A stretch of DNA of 64,000 nucleotides from Thermodesulfobacterium geofontis OPF15 (GTDB lineage Bacteria > Desulfobacterota > Thermodesulfobacteria > Thermodesulfobacteriales > Thermodesulfobacteriaceae), in contig NC_015682.1 of NCBI RefSeq assembly GCF_000215975.1, positions 434,001-498,000 of the forward strand, written 5' to 3'. A program made the position numbers and the translations under genes. Positions 3,001-29,789 of the stretch are shown in pieces. Under the pieces are notes generated by a model. It ran no database searches, was not told the origin of the DNA, and worked only from the letters and a program-made list of their open reading frames with translations. Position 1 is the first letter of the stretch. Each line of letters opens with the position of its first letter.

Positions 3001-3405
3001 TTAAAAGCTCTTGTTTTCCCCGATTTGTATAATCAGTATATGCACCTTTTAAAAGAAGGAGCAATGCTTTGGTTTAAAGGGGAAGTAGATAAAGAGGAAG
3101 AAAACAAGGTTCTTTTAATAGAAGATTTGGCAGAGTTAAAAGATTTAAAATTTTTTAAAGATGGGAAATTAAATATTCTATTTTCTTCTGAAAATTTTAA
3201 AGAAGAAAAATTAGAATATTTTAAGAATTTTTTGATAAAAGAAGAAGATTTAAAATCAGGATTACCTATCCAACTTTATTTAAAATATCCAGACTATTTA
3301 GTATGTTTTGAAATAAACGGATATAAAATAGACCCCTCTTATGAACATTTATCTTTATTATTGGACACCTTTGAAGAAATTCATTTAAAAGTGATTTTTT
3401 CATAA
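1..3405 (+). CDS. dnaE: DNA polymerase III alpha subunit, 5' end outside window
   Basis: Catalytic subunit of the replicative DNA polymerase (C-family). The reading frame is open from base 1, where it reads LHTEWSLLDGA, the PHP-domain motif found a few residues from the start of DnaE. Only a handful of N-terminal codons are therefore missing. The in-frame ATG at 76 is internal and is not the start. TDHG of the PHP domain lies near base 95. The polymerase catalytic motif PDIDVDF is at about 1192-1215, and the FDFLGLKTL segment is near 1650. The C-terminal region around 2900-3110 looks like the OB-fold (tRNA-binding-like) domain. Length and domain order are normal for DnaE1 rather than PolC. 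Confidence 0.97.
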   Translation, partial: LHTEWSLLDGAIRIEDLTKRLIEYGMPGCAVTDHGTLYGIIHFYTKLKEVGLKPIIGCEFYVAEGSRFEKKASKRGEAGTHLVLLAKNKEGYQNLLKLASIAYLEGFYYRPRIDKEVLKQYHQGLIAMSACLEGEIPRLLLAGNLNKAIEVAKWYKELFKDDFYLELQKNDLPEQDKVNEGILEIAEKLRIKCVATADCHYLDKEDALAHEVLLCIQTGHKLSDPDRFRFNTDKLYFASAEEMRERFKNYPLEIITNSMEIFEKIDLEIKTDEILFPKAKIPEGETVESYFIKKAREGLERKLKELKAKGQLAEDEEKYWQRLEYEIDTIIEKGYASYFLIVADFVNWAKSRGIPVGPGRGSAAGALTSYALGITNLDPLRWGLLFERFLNKERPSLPDIDVDFCMERRDEVIEYVANTYGKEYIAKIATFGQLKARQVVRDVGRVLGFKPKEIDPIAKMISPGINVTLEKELQREEFKELIKRSEKIKKLFELAKKLERLPRHVSQHAAGVIIAGKPITEVAPLMKGDEGEILVQFDMKACEAVGLIKFDFLGLKTLTIIDHTLKLIERYEGIKINIDDIPLNDEKTYELLRKGETDGVFQLESDGMKELLRRLKPTDFNDLIAVLALYRPGPLEGGLVDQYIETKHGKRKPEYLHPLLEPILKETYGVIVYQEQVMEIARAFAGYTLGEADLLRRAIGKKEKELMENLKKEFISRSVERNIPLEIAEKVYDLIEKFADYGFNKSHSAAYALLSYQTAYLKAHYPVYFIAGILTYSANKSEEVSKYIALANEMGIKILPPDINKSEAGFTVEGSAIRIGLYAIKNVGEEAVNEILKKRPYESFIDFCSKVDTKKVNRKTIEALIKAGAFDSLEPNRAKLMHNLPSVLSISNQAKFSILFKQGSLLSLDKTFNLEEVPPWDLDETLNFEKSALGFYLTDHPMRRFRKWINIFSSYYVEKIKEIEEGTKIIVAGVISEIKVKSTRNGEKMAIIKIEDEKSSLKALVFPDLYNQYMHLLKEGAMLWFKGEVDKEEENKVLLIEDLAELKDLKFFKDGKLNILFSSENFKEEKLEYFKNFLIKEEDLKSGLPIQLYLKYPDYLVCFEINGYKIDPSYEHLSLLLDTFEEIHLKVIFS

Positions 3406-3423
3406 AAATTTTAAAGTTTTTAC

Positions 3424-3452
3424 TTGAAAATTAAATTTCTATAGGCTACAAT
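3424..3452 (+). promoter_or_regulatory. Sigma-70-type promoter of the mini-ferritin gene
   Basis: A -35 box TTGAAA (3424-3429) is followed by a 17-nt spacer and a -10 box TACAAT (3447-3452). The expected start of transcription is near 3459, with AGGAGG just ahead of the ATG at 3483. It lies in the 77-bp gap after dnaE, so the ferritin gene is probably transcribed on its own. Identified by eye. Confidence 0.65.
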
Positions 3453-3482
3453 AAAATTTTAAAAACTCTAAAGGAGGAAGAT

Positions 3483-3782
3483 ATGCTTTCCAAAATTCCC
3501 TTTGATCTTTCAAAAATTGAAGATGAAGATCTTGACAAACAAATCCTTAGAGTAGCAATTATTGCAGAACTTGATGCCATTAATCTTTATGAACAATTGG
3601 CAGCTATGACTGAGGATGAAAATTTAAAAGCTGTTTTTCTTGACATAGCAAGAGAAGAAAAAACCCATGTAGGAGAATTTTTGACTATGCTTCTTATGAA
3701 AGATGAAGAACAAGAAGAGGAATTGTCAGCTGGAGAAGAAGAAGTAGAAGAAATTTTAGAAGGTGAAGAAGAGGAAGAATAA
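3483..3782 (+). CDS. Encapsulated-ferritin-type (EncFtn-like) mini-ferritin
   Basis: A 99-residue ferritin-like protein. Residues 24-70 carry one two-helix ferritin half with E29, E59 and H62. The 30- and 3-residue spacings match the EncFtn ferroxidase triad (E32, E62, H65 in the Rhodospirillum protein). The core AIIAELDAINLYEQ and DIAREEKTHVGEF closely resembles the ferritin domain fused to the Pyrococcus furiosus encapsulin shell protein, as recalled from that family. The last 25 residues are almost all acidic. EncFtn proteins dimerise to build the iron-oxidising site and usually work inside an encapsulin shell. No shell gene is in this window. A good promoter and AGGAGG Shine-Dalgarno precede it. 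Confidence 0.85.
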   Translation: MLSKIPFDLSKIEDEDLDKQILRVAIIAELDAINLYEQLAAMTEDENLKAVFLDIAREEKTHVGEFLTMLLMKDEEQEEELSAGEEEVEEILEGEEEEE

Positions 3783-3799
3783 ATTTTTAAAATAAGTGA

Positions 3800-5953
3800 A
3801 TGCTTTATTTATGTAATTTTATTATAATTATTCTTTTCTTCTTTTCTTTTATCATATCTTCTTGTTTTTCAGCTTATAAAAAAACTTTTGAAATTACAGC
3901 ACAAAAGATAGAGGTTTTTCATAAACCAGAAATTGTCATTGCAAAAGGAGATGTAGTTATAAATAGCAAAGAATTTCTAATCTGGGCTCAAACTGCTAAA
4001 TATGAAGTTGAAACAGAATATTTAATTTTGGAAAATTTTAAAATTTTTGATTTTCAAAAAAATGCAACTACTGAAGGAAATAAAGGGTTTTTAGATTTAA
4101 GAAATGAGGAAATTTGGGCAGATAGAGCCTTTATTTTTTTAAAAAAGGAACAAATAAGAATAAAAGCTATAGATTTTCATAAAAATGCTTTAAATGAATA
4201 TTTTGCTAAAAAAGCACTTATCACTACTTGTGAACTTGATTGTGAAAATGAAAAAGATTTTCCTCCTTGGAGTTTAGAAGTTGATAATTTTTTATTAACA
4301 CCAGAAGGTATAAGTAGTGGAGAAGCAACCAAATTTAAAATTAAAAATGTTCCTATAGGATATTTCCCTAAAGCTGCCTATATTCCTAAAGTTAATTTGC
4401 CTATAACTATTCCCAGAAAAACTGGATTTTTAACTCCAAAATTTTTTCAAGGAAGTAGATTGGGATTTGGGATACAGATACCCCTTTTTTGGGCTTTTAC
4501 AGATCAAATAGATTTTACTATATCTCCCTTTTATCTTACTAAAAGAGGAATGTTAATGGATATAGAAAACCAATTTAAATTTGAAAAAGAATTTCAAGGG
4601 CTAATAAAAATTAGATACTTAAAAGATATAGCGAAAGAAGGATATGCTATTGAAGAAAAACCAGAAAAAAATAAATGGTGGGTTGTTGGAAAAATAGATT
4701 ACGGAATGAAACCTAATTTAGATGCCCATTTAGATTTTGATGTGGTATCAGAGAGAGGATTTTTAGAAGAATTTGATGTAGGAGAAGGGGGTTACTCAAA
4801 CACAAGGGCACAAATTTTAGGAAGATTTAATAGAGATATAGAAGATAAGGCACAGGAATATAGAACTTCAAAATTTTGGATTCAATATTATAGAAATAGT
4901 TTATATACAAGACTTGAAAATACCTATTTAAATTATCATGGAGCAATTGATAGTGATACCATTTTACAGCCCCTTTTTAATTTTAATTTTAACTTTTTAC
5001 CTACAAGTATTTTAAATATCTTATTTCCTGAAGCATCTTTAAAATATCTTTATACTTACAGAAAAGAAGGATATTATGGAGACAAAATTGATACCAAAGT
5101 GGGTATTACTTATCCTTTTAAAATTGGTATGTTTTTTAATTCTGCAAGCTTTAATTATAATTTTAGTTTCTATAACCTAAGAGAAAAAGAGAGTTTTAAA
5201 GAAAGTAGTATAAACCGAAATTATTATGAATTTTTGATAAATTCTTATGTTTTGCTTTATAAATATTATGATTTTTTAACTATTTTTGATAAAAATTTAA
5301 GATTTTTACATACTTTAAAGCCCTATGCTACTTATTTTTATCGTTCTAAACCAAGTGAAACTAACATTCCCCAATTTGATTATGAAGACTTAATTAGTAA
5401 TAAAACTCACACCTTAGAATATGGACTTTGGCAATATTTTAGTTTCCCCTCTCGTAAAAATTTTTTAATAATCAGAGCCTATCAGCAATATGATTTTGTA
5501 AAGGGAGAGCGCTCAGCTACGGCTACCAAACCTGAAGAAAAACCCTTTTCTGACATATTCTTACAAGTCCTACTTAATTACAGTCCCTTTATTTATGCAA
5601 GATATGATACAGCTTATAATTTTTATGGACTTGGATTAAAAAAACATTCTCTTAGTTTAAGCTTAAGAGATGTATATCTTGATTATATAGATTTAATTTA
5701 TCAAGAAGATTCTGCATGGAATACAAAACAACTTACTCTTGATTTAAAATCTAAAATTTTAAATCACTTCTTAGCAGAATTTTATATAAGCAGAAATCTT
5801 ATAAGAGATGAAACTACAGAAATGAAACTTATAGGAACTTATTTACAGGACTGTTATACACTCAGTTTGGGATTTTCTGTTACTCCGAAAGATACAAAAT
5901 TTTATTTTCATTTTCAATTAAAAGGATTAGGAGGTTATGGAATAGAAAAGTAG
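3800..5953 (+). CDS. lptD: LPS assembly outer-membrane protein LptD
   Basis: A 717-residue LptD/OstA protein that inserts lipopolysaccharide into the outer leaflet of the outer membrane. A hydrophobic signal peptide covers residues 1-24. Next comes the periplasmic beta-jellyroll (ITAQKIEVFHKPEIVIAKGDVVI, an OstA repeat). The rest is a long beta-barrel rich in aromatic and alternating polar residues. The PPWSLEV stretch near residue 155 is typical of the family. It begins 18 nt after the ferritin stop with a weak ribosome site. Together with lptC, kdsA and kdsC elsewhere in the window, it shows that the cell makes LPS. Confidence 0.92.
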   Translation: MLYLCNFIIIILFFFSFIISSCFSAYKKTFEITAQKIEVFHKPEIVIAKGDVVINSKEFLIWAQTAKYEVETEYLILENFKIFDFQKNATTEGNKGFLDLRNEEIWADRAFIFLKKEQIRIKAIDFHKNALNEYFAKKALITTCELDCENEKDFPPWSLEVDNFLLTPEGISSGEATKFKIKNVPIGYFPKAAYIPKVNLPITIPRKTGFLTPKFFQGSRLGFGIQIPLFWAFTDQIDFTISPFYLTKRGMLMDIENQFKFEKEFQGLIKIRYLKDIAKEGYAIEEKPEKNKWWVVGKIDYGMKPNLDAHLDFDVVSERGFLEEFDVGEGGYSNTRAQILGRFNRDIEDKAQEYRTSKFWIQYYRNSLYTRLENTYLNYHGAIDSDTILQPLFNFNFNFLPTSILNILFPEASLKYLYTYRKEGYYGDKIDTKVGITYPFKIGMFFNSASFNYNFSFYNLREKESFKESSINRNYYEFLINSYVLLYKYYDFLTIFDKNLRFLHTLKPYATYFYRSKPSETNIPQFDYEDLISNKTHTLEYGLWQYFSFPSRKNFLIIRAYQQYDFVKGERSATATKPEEKPFSDIFLQVLLNYSPFIYARYDTAYNFYGLGLKKHSLSLSLRDVYLDYIDLIYQEDSAWNTKQLTLDLKSKILNHFLAEFYISRNLIRDETTEMKLIGTYLQDCYTLSLGFSVTPKDTKFYFHFQLKGLGGYGIEK

Positions 5954-5961
5954 CATTAAGA

Positions 5962-6432
5962 ATGCTTCAGAAAATAAAAATTTTAATGCCAGGTCCAATA
6001 AAATTTAACTTTGTTAAAGAAGGATTAGGGTATTATCTAAATAAATTAGAAAAATTTGTTGAAATTTCCGCTCTATTTCCAAAAGTAAAAATCAAAGAAT
6101 CTGAAAAAAATATAAGAATAAAAAAAGAAGGAGAGGTATTAAAAAGATACATTTCAGATAAAGAATATTTGATAGTTCTTGATGAGAAAGGAAAAGCGTT
6201 TAAAAGCTTTGAGTTAGCTAAAAAGTTGGAAAATTTAATGCAAAATCAAACTTTTATTACCTTTGTTATAGGTGGACCAGAGGGATTATCTGAAGAATTA
6301 AAAAAGGATGCTAAAGAGATTTGGAGTATTTCTTCTCTAACCTTAAATCACGAAATAACTCTTTTAGTTTTAGTTGAAGCGCTTTATAGAAGTTTTACAA
6401 TTATAAAAGGTATTCCCTATCATAAGGAGTGA
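5962..6432 (+). CDS. rlmH: 23S rRNA (pseudouridine1915-N3)-methyltransferase RlmH
   Basis: A 156-residue SPOUT-class methyltransferase acting on pseudouridine 1915 of 23S rRNA. The SAM-binding knot shows GGPEGL at 104-109, then the [19 protein letters not shown] segment, and a C-terminal YHK (153-155); all are diagnostic of RlmH. The length is normal. It starts 8 nt after the lptD stop, and the HDAC-like gene begins 4 nt after it ends, so it probably shares a transcript with both. Confidence 0.95.
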
Positions 6433-6436
6433 AAAG

Positions 6437-7489
6437 ATGAAAAAATTTGCAATAATCTATGATGAGATATTTTTAAAACATAATCCAGGAGCTTTTCACC
6501 CAGAATCTCCTCAAAGACTCCAGGCTATTTGGGAAAGATTACAAAAAGAAGATATAGCGCCTTATATTGAAGTTTTCCCCCCTGATATAGCAACAAAAGA
6601 AGAAATTTTATGGAATCATAGTGAATATCTTTATAATTTAATTGAACACACTAAAGGAAAACCTTATACTCAACTTGATCCAGATACAGCTACCAATGAA
6701 TATTCCTTTTTTGCAGCCTTAAAAGCAGTAGGAGCACAAAAAACAGCTTTAAAACTACTTTTTGAAGAAGGTTATAGAGGAACCTTTGCTCTTGTTAGAC
6801 CACCTGGTCATCATGCTGAGAAAGATCGTGCTATGGGATTTTGTTTATTTAACAATGTTGCTATAGCAGCCTATTATGCCAAAAATTACTATGGACTAAA
6901 AAAAATTTTAATAGTGGATTGGGATTTACATCATGGAAATGGAACACAAAAGAGTTTTTATTCTGATCCAGAAGTTCTTTATTTTTCAGTTCATCAATAT
7001 CCCTATTATCCTGGGACAGGACATTATTCTGAAATCGGTGAAGGTAAAGGAATAGGTTTTACTTTGAATGTTCCTCTCCCTGCTTATTGTGGAGATGAGG
7101 AATATATCTATATCTTTAAAGAATTTTTAGGACCTATAGCTTTGCAATTTGAACCAGAAATTATTATGGTTTCAGCAGGATTTGATCTCTGTGAGGGAGA
7201 CCCTTTGGGGAATATGGAAGTTACTCCACACTTTGGAATTCCCATGTTAACTTTAATTTTAAAAAACATTGCAGAAAAAACTTGTCAAGGGAGAATCCTT
7301 TTTACTTTAGAAGGTGGTTATAATGCAGTTAATCTTCAAGAGAGTGTAGCTAACTTAATTTTAACTTTTCTGGGATTAAAAGATCTTCCAGAAAAAATAA
7401 CCTTTTCAGAAAGAGCTGAAAGAATAGAAGCAAAAATTCTTAAACCACTTAAGGAGCTTTTAAGATATGCAACCAGCTGGCTTATTTAG
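6437..7489 (+). CDS. Histone deacetylase-family amidohydrolase (AcuC/acetylpolyamine-type)
   Basis: A 350-residue zinc-dependent deacetylase of the arginase/HDAC fold. RPPGHHAE (121-128) gives the catalytic His pair. [11 protein letters not shown] holds zinc ligands D163 and H165, and SAGFD gives the third ligand, D250. The C-terminal LEGGYN is also canonical. Bacterial members remove acetyl groups from acetoin-related targets, polyamines or proteins; the substrate cannot be told here. There is a good ribosome site (GGAGTG). The 3' end overlaps the HlyD gene by 23 nt, so it is coupled to the efflux operon. Confidence 0.9.
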
Positions 7490-25656: not shown

Positions 25657-27045
25657 TTAAAATGCTACTTGCAAGGTTAATTGTAATCTTTTGTCATCCT
25701 TAAGCAATTTATCTTCATAATTTACATAATCATAATCAAGAACAAGCATATTTTTGTGAGGTTTATCAAGATGATAAACAATTCCCAAAATGTATCTTTT
25801 ACTTTCATCTACTATTTTATCAGCTAAATCCTTTTGATCATCATTTTGGTCAAAATAATCATATCTTGCAATTAAACTTATAGGAAGGCTTGAGAAGGCA
25901 TAAGGTTTAAGTTCTAAGAAAAAGGAATAGCCATCCTTATCATAATCATCAGAACCCTTTTGATTTGAATGTCCCCAGTAATATTGAGCAGTAGCAGTAA
26001 AATATTCATGTTCATAACTTGCAAAAAGAAGATTTACTCGCCAGTTAGGAGGATTTTTCTCTACGTTCCCCTTTCCTCTAATTCCGAAATAGGAGATCTG
26101 AAAACCAGGTAAGAGATCTGGTAGGGGTCTTAAAGTAATTCTTGCCTCAATAGGTTTATCATTATTTTTTTCTCTATCATGATATCCTGCACCATTATAA
26201 ATTCCTAAAGCAATGCTTCCATATCTTCCTGCATAAGAGGGATTAACCCTTTTTTTGTACCATTCAGGCATTTCTTCACCAAGAAGTGCCATGAAGGTAA
26301 TTCCAAAATCTGCAGAATTAAATAGACCATTTCTTTCTGTAAACATTGTATCTTGACATCTATACCAATTTAAATTTTCTTCATAATCAAGCCAAGGAAA
26401 ATGAACCTGTCCAAATTCTAAGAAAGGCTTTTTTAAAAATCCCATATCCGGGAATTTAAACTTTCCATAAATATATTTAGTTCTTACCATTATAGAACCA
26501 TCTATATTAGTTTTATTTGGTTTTTGAAGCTCTTCTTTTACTTGAGTTACATCAAAAGTTACATGGGCATCAAACCAAGGAGTTATATTTTTGGTAAATC
26601 TTACATATCCTCTTTTAATAGCAACTTGACTTCTCTGTTTATCATCTCCAGCTTCACCTCCCACATCTTTCCCCTTTCCATTCATATAAGAGATATACCA
26701 CAAACCATTTACATTTAATCCTTTTAGAGCCTTAATAATTTCATCAAGCTTCTTATTTTTTTTCTCCACTTCATCTTTAGCCTTTTCTACCTTTTCAACC
26801 ATAGAAGTTAAGGTGCCTTCTTTTTGCTTAAGCTCTTTTTCTTTTTGTTCTAATTCTGAAAGAAGTTTTTTAATCTCTTCCTTTTTCTTTTCATAATCTT
26901 CAAGAAGAGTTTTTAGTTCAGCAATTTTTGCATCTAAAGACTTTTCTTCTGTTAAAGCCTTAGCATAAGAGGGAAAAAGACTTAAAACTCCTAAGGAAAG
27001 TGCTAAAGCTAATCCTTTTTTAAAGCGTTTTTTAGTTTTTCCCAT
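25657..27045 (-). CDS. Outer-membrane porin with coiled-coil N-terminus (OprP-like)
   Basis: A 462-residue outer-membrane protein. Residues 1-31 are a signal peptide. Residues about 33-107 form a strongly charged heptad-rich coiled coil (EKKKEEIKKLLSELEQKEKE). The rest is a beta-barrel with alternating aromatic residues, ending in LQVAF with the C-terminal Phe used for outer-membrane assembly. The coiled coil plus barrel resembles S-layer-like/phosphate-selective porins. It lies 23 nt after the pstS remnant on the same strand, which makes phosphate uptake plausible. A strong terminator follows. Confidence 0.8.
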   Translation of the reverse strand: MGKTKKRFKKGLALALSLGVLSLFPSYAKALTEEKSLDAKIAELKTLLEDYEKKKEEIKKLLSELEQKEKELKQKEGTLTSMVEKVEKAKDEVEKKNKKLDEIIKALKGLNVNGLWYISYMNGKGKDVGGEAGDDKQRSQVAIKRGYVRFTKNITPWFDAHVTFDVTQVKEELQKPNKTNIDGSIMVRTKYIYGKFKFPDMGFLKKPFLEFGQVHFPWLDYEENLNWYRCQDTMFTERNGLFNSADFGITFMALLGEEMPEWYKKRVNPSYAGRYGSIALGIYNGAGYHDREKNNDKPIEARITLRPLPDLLPGFQISYFGIRGKGNVEKNPPNWRVNLLFASYEHEYFTATAQYYWGHSNQKGSDDYDKDGYSFFLELKPYAFSSLPISLIARYDYFDQNDDQKDLADKIVDESKRYILGIVYHLDKPHKNMLVLDYDYVNYEDKLLKDDKRLQLTLQVAF

Positions 27046-27068: not shown

Positions 27069-27946
27069 TTAAGGATTAATTTTATATTTCCCCCAGTATT
27101 CATAGATGAGATGAACTAAATTCTTGGGTAAAGGAATATAGTATAAGTCTTCTGCTATTTTACTACCCCTTTCAAAAGCCCATTTAAAAAATTTAGTTAC
27201 CTCTTTTGCATTAGGTTTATCAAGAGGTATAAGAATAAAAGATGCTCCTTCTCCATTTTCCATTTTGCATTGCTTACAGCAGATTGCATTGATTTTACTG
27301 AAGGAGTAATAAAGGCACTTCCCTTAGCATTTAAAAGATTGGCTCCTATTCCCACAGGCCAATTTACTGAGGTTCCAGCTCCTACTTTTTCTCTCCACTC
27401 AGGACAAGCTTTACTTAAATAGGTAGTAAAAAGCCATGTTGTTCCAGAGCCATCAGATCTTCTAACCACTACAATAGGACGTTCAGGAAGATTGACTTTT
27501 GGATTTAATTTTTTCAAATATGGGTCATTCCAGTTTTTAATTTTACCCAAGTAAATATCACAGATAGCTTTATGATCTAAATTTAAAGAAATATTTTTTA
27601 ATTCTGGCAAATTATAAGTGATTACTACAGCACCAATTATAAAAGGGAATTGAACTAAGTTATATTTTCTTAATTCTTCAGAAGCCAAGGGTTTATCACT
27701 TGCTCCAAAATCAACTGTCTTTTCTTGAGCCTGTTTTATTCCTCCTCCAGAACCTATTCCTTGATAATTGATTTTTACTTTAGTGAGTTTATAATATTCA
27801 TAAGCCCAAGCTTCAATTACAGGTTGAGGGAAAGTAGCTCCTGCACCAGTTAATTCAATAGCTTGAGATAAAGAAGGACTCAAAATGCAAAAGATTATGA
27901 TTAAAAGACACCAAAATTTAAAAATTAAAGACTTCATCATATTCAC
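27069..27946 (-). pseudogene. pstS: Phosphate ABC transporter substrate-binding protein PstS, decayed
   Basis: PstS binds periplasmic phosphate for the Pst importer. The first 230 residues are clear: a signal peptide, then ELTGAGATFPQPVIEAWAY, QGIGSGGGIKQ and RSDGSGTTWLF. Two lesions follow. After WPVGIGA about 30 residues normally present (the KGNEGV...GAIGYVEYAYA block) are missing. About 60 nt later the frame shifts near 27263, and the family C-terminus (FILIPLDKPNAKEVTKFFKWAFERG, then LPKNLVHLIYEYW) continues in another frame to 27069. Roughly 50 residues are lost overall. The ribosome site (GGAGGTGAAT) and promoter region look intact. No pstC, pstA or pstB is adjacent. Confidence 0.82.
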
Positions 27947-27988
27947 CTCCTTTTTAAGATTTTTTGTGAAAAGTATAAAAAAGTAATT

Positions 27989-28032
27989 TTAAAAAAGAGT
28001 TAAAAAAATGTTAAAAATAGGTTAAAAATCAG
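27989..28032 (+). promoter_or_regulatory. Four tandem 11-nt repeats, probable PhoB-type operator
   Basis: Four contiguous 11-mers, TTAAAAAAGAG, TTAAAAAAATG, TTAAAAATAGG and TTAAAAATCAG, start at 27989, 28000, 28011 and 28022. OmpR/PhoB regulators bind direct repeats with an 11-bp period. The array fills the gap between the divergent pstS remnant and the PhoB-like gene, ending 7 nt before the regulator start. It is therefore placed to control both. The binding protein is inferred. Confidence 0.7.
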
Positions 28033-28039
28033 ATATTAA

Positions 28040-28714
28040 ATGGAAAAAATTTTAATAGTGGAAGATGATAAAGAGATAGGAAAAATTCTTTCAGAGGGCT
28101 TTTCTTCTCAAGGTTATAAATGTCATATAGTTAGTTCTTTGTCTGAGGCTTACATTTACCTTTTATCTTCTTCAGATCTATCTCTTGTTATACTTGATCT
28201 TATTCTCCCAGATGGTGACGGATTAGAACTTTTAAAGTATCTTCGTTCAACCCTTAAATTTAAAAAATTACCAGTAATTATAATTTCAGCCAGAGGAGCA
28301 GAGCTTGACAGAATTTTAGGTTTAGAATTGGGGGCAGATGATTATGTGGTTAAGCCATTTAGTCTAAGAGAAGTTATAATAAGGGCTAATAAAATTTTAA
28401 AAAGAAATTTACAACCAGAAGAGATTTTAAATTATGGTCCCCTTAAAGTGGATAAGAAAAAAAAGATTATTTTACTTGAAGAAAAACTCCTTACTCTTAC
28501 ACCTACAGAATATAAGATTTTAGAAACCTTAGTAGAAAACTCAGAAAGAATTATTACCAGAGAAGAGCTTATTAGAATAATTTGGCCTGTAGAAAAGGAA
28601 TATTACTCAAGAGTTTTAGATGCTTATATTTGTAGATTAAGAACCAAGCTTGGTAAATATGGAAAAATCATAGAAACTGTTAGAGGCTTTGGATACCGTT
28701 TAGCTCAGATATAA
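28040..28714 (+). CDS. phoB: Two-component response regulator, PhoB/OmpR family
   Basis: A 224-residue regulator. The receiver domain (1-120) has acidic residues D9 and D10, the phospho-acceptor D53 (VILDLILPDGDG) and K104 (VVKPFS). The C-terminal winged helix has LTPTEYKILETLVEN and LRTKLGKYGKIIETVRGFGYRL, typical of PhoB. The Pho assignment rests on the pstS remnant, the porin and the 11-nt repeats beside it. It has no clear Shine-Dalgarno, because the repeat array reaches to within 7 nt of the start. The kinase gene starts 2 nt after its stop. Confidence 0.85.
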   Translation: MEKILIVEDDKEIGKILSEGFSSQGYKCHIVSSLSEAYIYLLSSSDLSLVILDLILPDGDGLELLKYLRSTLKFKKLPVIIISARGAELDRILGLELGADDYVVKPFSLREVIIRANKILKRNLQPEEILNYGPLKVDKKKKIILLEEKLLTLTPTEYKILETLVENSERIITREELIRIIWPVEKEYYSRVLDAYICRLRTKLGKYGKIIETVRGFGYRLAQI

Positions 28715-28715
28715 A

Positions 28716-29789
28716 ATGAAAATCCCCCTTTCTTTATTAATTTTCTTAATAATAGCCCTTTTAATAGCCATATTTTTTCTTCTCAAAAAATTTTTAAAAA
28801 TTAAAAAGGAAAATAGCCTTTTAAAAAGAGAGCTTAATTTTTGGATAGATTTTTTCTCTAATTATCCTTTTCCTCTTTTTATAATTGAAAAAGATGAAAT
28901 AAAATGGCAAAACAAAAAGGCTCTTGAGATTTTAGGAGATCTTAGGGGTAAGAAAAAAGACCAAATAGAGTTATTTTTAAAAGATTCTTATTGGGATCGA
29001 AAAGTCCTTTTTCTTTCACCAGAATCGGCAGCTTATCTTTTGATTGATAAAAAGGAGGAAAAAATTTTAAAAAGAAGTTATGAAATAGCTTTAGCCTATC
29101 TTTCTCATGAATTAAAAACACCCTTTACTATGGTAAAAAACTATGCAGAAAAATTGGAAGAAAAACTAAAAGAAATTAAATCTTTTGAAGCTCTTTTAAA
29201 AGATTTTGAAGCTTTAAAAAATTCTTTAGAAAGGGTTGAAAGATTAATTTATAAACTATTTTCATCCTTAGAGTATTTAGTTAAGGATTTAAAAATAAAA
29301 AAGGAAAATTTTTCTTTAAAACCTGCAATAGAGGAGGTAATTTTTTGGGTAACCCCACTTTGTAAGGATAAAAATATAGAGTTAGAGGTGGATATACCAG
29401 AGGATATAGAAATAGAGGGAGATAAAGAATGGTTAATGCAAGCTATTTTAAATCCTTTAGAAAATGCTATTAAATTTTCCCCACCTGGAGAAAAAGTGAT
29501 TTTAAAGGTTTACCGAAGAGAAAATGATTGGATTAATATTTTGATAAGAGATATGGGTCCAGGGGTTGCTTATGAAGAGCTTCCCTTTTTAGGAATGCCC
29601 TTTTTTAAATCAAGTGCTGAAAAGGGATTAGGTTTTGGGCTTTTTCTTACTAAAAAAATAATATCTGCTCATGGGGGAAAACTTAGATTTAATCTTCCTT
29701 CCCAAGGAGGCTTAGAAGTATTAATAGAAATACCTTATAATTTGAAAAGAGTTTCTATTTCTTCTTCTGACATGGGTTTTGCTAAATAA
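28716..29789 (+). CDS. phoR: Sensor histidine kinase, PhoR-like
   Basis: A 357-residue membrane kinase. One N-terminal helix (3-24) leads into a short PAS-like region (about 42-110). The H-box is YLSHELKTPFTMV with phospho-acceptor H131. The ATPase domain shows the N-box (NPLENAIKFSPPG), G1 (DMGPGV) and G2 (GLGFGLFLTKK). The lack of a periplasmic sensor domain is like PhoR, which senses through the Pst system. The last 55 nt overlap the 3' end of the convergent GGDEF-EAL gene. Confidence 0.85.
   Translation: MKIPLSLLIFLIIALLIAIFFLLKKFLKIKKENSLLKRELNFWIDFFSNYPFPLFIIEKDEIKWQNKKALEILGDLRGKKKDQIELFLKDSYWDRKVLFLSPESAAYLLIDKKEEKILKRSYEIALAYLSHELKTPFTMVKNYAEKLEEKLKEIKSFEALLKDFEALKNSLERVERLIYKLFSSLEYLVKDLKIKKENFSLKPAIEEVIFWVTPLCKDKNIELEVDIPEDIEIEGDKEWLMQAILNPLENAIKFSPPGEKVILKVYRRENDWINILIRDMGPGVAYEELPFLGMPFFKSSAEKGLGFGLFLTKKIISAHGGKLRFNLPSQGGLEVLIEIPYNLKRVSISSSDMGFAK

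Follow-up and report, generated by a model that had tools for sequence, protein, structure and literature searches.

The window, the 64,000-nucleotide stretch of the Thermodesulfobacterium geofontis OPF15 genome (G000) analyzed here, carries a phosphate-binding protein gene and a PhoB-like regulator gene in divergent orientation. On the minus strand lies pstS (27072–27940), which was assigned by its match to TIGR00975 (247 bits, cut-off 205) and which is damaged in comparison with the intact protein of a related genome, G008. Directly downstream of pstS and on the same strand, a gene at 25657–27045 encodes a porin-like protein of the outer membrane, 462 amino acids long and with a coiled coil at its N terminus; this gene is the proposed second gene of the operon. 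On the plus strand lie a phoB-like gene for an OmpR/PhoB-family response regulator (28040–28714), with a receiver and a Trans_reg_C domain, and a phoR-like gene for a sensor histidine kinase (28716–29789), with HisKA and HATPase domains. The best NCBIfam model for the regulator is PhoB, with 183 and 186 bits against curated cut-offs of 296 and 270, and the kinase scores 105 against a cut-off of 334 with the PhoR model, its second-ranked match; since both fall below the curated cut-offs, the names PhoB and PhoR rest on the neighborhood. A Pho box calls for a PhoBR-type two-component system in the same genome, and the adjacent regulator and kinase provide one.

The intergenic region between the pstS reading frame and the regulator gene is 93 nt long (27947–28039) and holds an array of direct repeats. 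Read on the plus strand, the array consists of four units of the form TTAAAAANNNN at 27989–28032, in the order TTAAAAAAGAG TTAAAAAAATG TTAAAAATAGG TTAAAAATCAG, and the 7-nt cores of all four units are identical. A Pho box has at least two direct repeats of 11 nt, with 7–8 conserved and 3–4 variable positions; here there are four. When the region was scored for self-match (four copies of a 7-nt core, any period from 8 to 20), the best value was 21 of 21 at period 11, which none of 2000 dinucleotide-preserving shuffles reached (mean 14.7, maximum 19). Across the whole 1.63-Mb genome, three exact GTTAAAA copies at this period are found at a single place, in this array. Allowing up to three mismatches gave 4 + 3 places compared to 2 + 2 for the reversed-pattern control, and three of the seven are the same array in shifted registers. 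Two copies of TTAAAAA at 11 nt were found in the own genome at background frequency (10 + 10 places against 12 + 12 for the control); a single pair is therefore uninformative and the pair search was dropped as a marker. These results confirmed what the sequence-only reading had noticed, namely four contiguous 11-nt repeats between pstS and the PhoB-like gene, reaching to within 7 nt of the regulator ATG at 28040. Random scattering of such arrays in the genome, which that reading had named as grounds against a regulatory role, was looked for in the genome scans and not found.

The array acquires a different appearance when it is read towards pstS. On the minus strand, from 28026 to 27983, it reads as three TTTAAC-N5 units followed by one TTTAAA-N5 unit (TTTAACCTATT TTTAACATTTT TTTAACTCTTT TTTAAAATTAC), and exactly 5 nt past the fourth unit stands a –10-like hexamer, TATACT (27972–27977), followed by a GGAGG-like ribosome site ahead of pstS. 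We propose this register as the functional one, on the basis of conservation and spacing. In the three genomes with a compact intergenic region (G000, G008, and G012), the array and the –10 form the best conserved block of the region: compared with the window, the array and the TATA[CT]T hexamer (TATATT in G008 and G012) are almost unchanged in the two relatives, and the flanks are divergent. In four further genomes (G013, G006, G001, and G010), the regulator start lies 227–245 nt from the pstS start, the array lies 41–46 nt before the pstS start, and it reads as tandem TTAACA-N5, with three literal TTAACA-N5 units in G013, G006, and G001. Because the array stays beside pstS in the genomes with a distant phoB, it belongs to the pstS promoter, and its closeness to phoB is limited to the three compact genomes.

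The conservation of this arrangement was measured in 17 pst-type upstream regions of the genus (g1) and a sister genus (g6), which were scored for four tandem TTTAAC hexamers at 11 nt (maximum 24). Sixteen of the 17 regions scored 20–23, values that none of 300 shuffles of each region reached, and in these 16 no other period between 7 and 16 gave a score above 18. The exception was a phosphate-binding gene in G007, which scored 14 and has no array. The upstream regions of second-copy pstS genes, most of them pyrE-linked, reached 20 in one of 14 cases (G022), with 17 in G020 and 12–15 in the other 12. When the array was placed without use of the –10, all 16 array-bearing regions (G007 being left out) had a TANNNT hexamer exactly 5 nt past the array, and no other offset in the range 0–19 had one in more than three of them; the genomes are related, so the counts are not independent, and by eye the 16 sites make up roughly eight distinct spacer groups. 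The same offset was found in seven of eight other array-bearing regions, which precede three porin-like genes, one pstS-remnant/porin pair, and a 189-codon unknown gene in four genomes; the one miss was the G002 porin. This spacing puts 10 nt between the last core and the –10, and the array occupies the fixed position, in place of a –35 and about 10 nt before the –10, that is typical of a Pho box. For 13 pstS upstream regions taken from other genera in the family and order, lag 11 did not stand out in a de novo period test. A wider family box therefore rests on inspection by eye, by which some other genera of this family show TTCACA-like pairs ahead of pstS, with a non-significant lag test.

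A scan of 31 genomes for the full promoter pattern (four TTTAA-N6 units, N5, and TANNNT, with up to two mismatches) found 37 places compared to 14 for the reversed pattern. The matches fell in 13 of the 31 genomes, all belonging to g1 or g6, and 16 other genomes had none. Eight places were free of mismatches: five before pst genes, one before a porin-like gene, and two before small unknown genes on one G003 contig. Other arrays precede an alkaline phosphatase (G018:C1:484224; PF00245, E 3.3e-68) and a phosphonate-binding protein (G010:C1:680572; PF12974, E 3.6e-55). Together with pstS and the porin-like gene of the window, these place the array upstream of phosphate-acquisition genes, as a Pho box should be. 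Among 13 inspected loci, those at G000:C1:139926, two in G006, two in G002, and one each in G012, G008, and G009 looked like background, lying within genes or ahead of genes without a phosphate link. An earlier scan of 14 genomes of the genus for three TTAAC-N6 units with one mismatch had given 35 places against 15 in the control; nine loci were mismatch-free, of which six are the pstS–phoB intergenic region and three lie in G003.

Several of the loci carry genes of less obvious function. A gene of 188–189 codons without a Pfam match has the same array and –10 in G013, G001, G006, and G010 (L172–L175) and is a candidate Pho-regulon gene. A Pho-type array before an EAL-domain protein at G018:C1:881758 (L302) hints at a link from phosphate to cyclic-di-GMP. 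On a 6.8-kb contig of G003 (C46, L307), three Pho-type arrays accompany small unknown genes and a protein that matches S1/P1 nucleases below threshold.

In the window's own genome, two mismatches gave 13 places against 18 in the control, and the neighbors of 10 loci, picked from these places and from those of the three-copy GTTAAAA search, included no phosphate gene. No second good array was found there; the other promoter match with two mismatches overlaps gene starts, and the control is equally frequent. Since the window array is the only convincing one, the regulon in this organism may be very small. A second, intact pstSCAB set is present at 3122–6827 of locus L106 (G000:C1, about 529600–533300), after a PilZ/pyrE-like gene named by eye. 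No array was found upstream of this operon, which may therefore fall outside the control of this promoter type. A PhoU-family match (G000:C1:1139889–1140521) lies inside a 449-amino-acid open frame away from the pst operon, as it does in other members of the genus.

Collectively, the 11-nt units, their place in 16 of 17 pst-type upstream regions, the fixed spacing to the –10, the genome scan, and the company of phosphorus genes support both earlier suggestions, that the array is an operator of the PhoB class and that it is the Pho box of this lineage. As judged from sequence comparison, the array very probably serves the pstS(–porin) promoter as its Pho box, with binding by the regulator and control by phosphate as predictions. 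It is best classed as a true Pho box of the TTAAC subtype whose place and spacing are conserved; the neighboring regulator is expected to bind to it and would act positively from it under phosphate starvation.

The position of the array next to phoB raises the question of whether it also, or mainly, serves as an operator at which the bound regulator blocks its own transcription. The array fills most of the possible phoB promoter region, there are only 93 nt between the two genes, and the layout in which the array adjoins phoB is kept in G008 and G012. In addition, a TAATTT or TAACTT hexamer at about –57 of phoB is common to the three compact genomes, and the array would lie just downstream of a start at such a site. 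However, this hexamer is a weak TANNNT without a good –35, and it overlaps the fourth unit, so that its conservation is explained by the box; a scan for promoter-like sites on the plus strand found none. The array remains with pstS in G013, G006, G001, and G010, where phoB is farther off. Moreover, phoB lies behind the pst genes, in the same orientation, in G018, G009, G020, and others, an order that suggests positive rather than negative feedback. Autorepression of phoB is possible but not indicated, and we consider it doubtful. The related idea that phoB is transcribed without a leader did not hold: a leaderless promoter requires a –10 at about 6–14 nt before the ATG, the phoB ATG has no TANNNT closer than about 20 nt in G000, G008, or G012, and the plus-strand scan was negative, as noted. 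The lack of a Shine–Dalgarno sequence before phoB lends it no support, since such a lack is common in the window (an SD-like core was seen in 15 of 45 open reading frames examined and was missing in 30).

Two other explanations dispense with the neighboring regulator as the binding protein. The A-runs of the array recur at 11 nt, near the helical period, and phased A-tracts of this kind could form intrinsically curved DNA or an UP element to which no specific regulator binds. Relatives break the A-runs, however, and keep TTTAAC with its C, as in TTTAACATTAC, which occurs twice in G018. The arrays stand before phosphate genes and are missing from 13 of the 14 second-copy pstS regions in these genomes, and the reversed-pattern control falls well short of the promoter pattern (14 against 37 places). 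Curvature or an UP element is thus an extremely improbable explanation, and random A-tracts were rejected on the lineage scores, the –10 spacing, and the 31-genome scan. The array could also bind a different OmpR-family regulator. Several OmpR-family proteins bind direct repeats of 10–11 nt, and 16 OmpR-family matches were counted in the own genome. Nevertheless, it is the regulator in question that adjoins the array-bearing pst genes in G000, G008, G012, G013, G006, G001, G010, and G004, and the remaining array-bearing genes are phosphorus genes, which makes a role for another family member very unlikely.

A Pho box of the pstS promoter can be compared with those already known. The PhoP box of Bacillus subtilis consists of TTAACA-like repeats at about 11 nt. 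Like it, the array has four units of the TTAACA-N5 kind, which lie on the coding strand of the gene that it serves, and this placement of the TTAAC core is that of the Bacillus and cyanobacterial subtype; unlike it, the last unit (or the last two) reads TTTAAA rather than TTAACA, and the host is not a Firmicute. The sequence-only reading had held that the array differs from the Bacillus type, a difference that proved to be an artefact of the strand: the pstS strand reads TTTAAC-N5 three times and then TTTAAA-N5, relatives have literal TTAACA-N5, and the likeness to the TTAACA and CTTAACCT boxes was hidden because the array had been read on the regulator strand. The cyanobacterial SphR Pho box is described as at least three copies of the 8-nt CTTAACCT with a 3-nt linker (PMC1906773). 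In the SphR frame the window reads TTTAACCT att TTTAACAT ttt TTTAACTC ttt TTTAAAAT, with the same core and the same 11-nt register; compared with the SphR box as given there, it has four units, a fixed distance to the –10, and T instead of C as the first letter.

The box of E. coli PhoB is a direct repeat of CTGTCAT-N4 (PMC3465305, PMC4415409), about 10 bp away from the –10 (PMC1906773), and an 11-nt register is common to the E. coli and SphR boxes (PMC1906773, PMC4415409); by eye, the same register can be seen upstream of E. coli phoB. The array shares these 11-nt direct repeats and the distance of about 10 nt from core to –10 but has the core TTTAAC in place of CTGTCA, and its regulator shares 33% identity with E. 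coli PhoB, from which it departs at several positions of the recognition helix. For comparison, the regulator is 86% identical to its counterpart in G008 and 65% to that in G013. When genome contigs were scanned with the regulator, 80 loci of other lineages were found with a best identity of 42%, too distant for a comparison of boxes. The Streptomyces PHO box, GTTCACC (PMC4415409), also has 11-nt units and a TT-AC core but a GC-rich consensus. Literature searches on the Pho regulons of Thermodesulfobacteria and Thermodesulfobacterium found no description of a Pho box. What is new is the Pho box of a further lineage, of a kind that is already known.

The state of the genes behind the promoter deserves separate consideration. 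Compared with that of G008, the window's pstS lacks about 33 internal codons and changes frame near its end; a 249-amino-acid open reading frame covers 27197–27946, with the C-terminal piece in another frame. Since the frame change comes together with an internal deletion, a sequencing error is less likely to be the only cause of the break. The porin-like gene and the promoter are intact though pstS is damaged. In G008 an intact pstS is followed by the porin-like gene. G004 and G009 retain no more of this pstS than a C-terminal remnant, placed between an array and a porin-like gene, and the porin-like gene comes directly after the array in G003 and G005. From these arrangements it seems that the promoter is kept for the porin-like gene while the adjoining pstS decays. 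The porin label draws on a signal-like start, the coiled coil, and weak Porin_5 and Porin_O_P matches; among 12 members of the family, Pfam gave Porin_O_P for one and Porin_5 for two, all weak, and a profile search of the PDB with 12 members gave no match. A structure prediction of the single protein had a mean pLDDT of 39 and was not used. The family, which has no Pfam match at cut-off, is a candidate phosphate porin. In several genera its members are found next to phoB or pstS, including genomes from outside the genus such as G030, G035, G037, and G038.

The mechanism that we propose would begin with phosphate starvation, under which the PhoR-like kinase would phosphorylate the PhoB-like regulator. 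The regulator would then bind head to tail to the four minus-strand TTTAAC-N5 repeats, one molecule per 11-nt unit, and would recruit RNA polymerase to the TATACT hexamer 5 nt past the last unit, so that pstS and the porin-like gene behind it would be switched on. In the compact genomes (G000, G008, and G012), the array might in addition act as a two-way switch, activating pstS–porin and limiting phoBR from the phoB start, with the promoter of the window taken over by the porin-like gene as pstS decays. This extension is unlikely as a whole; if true, it would mean that PhoB control is retained for entry across the outer membrane and not for the binding protein.

These observations illustrate a common trap, in which an operator between divergent genes seems unlike the known consensus when it is read on the wrong strand. 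They provide a position-exact promoter definition for the genus, four TTTAAC-N5 units, 5 nt, and TANNNT, which can be used to list the probable Pho regulon of each genome, and they would link the TTAAC-type Pho boxes of Bacillus and cyanobacteria to a third lineage.
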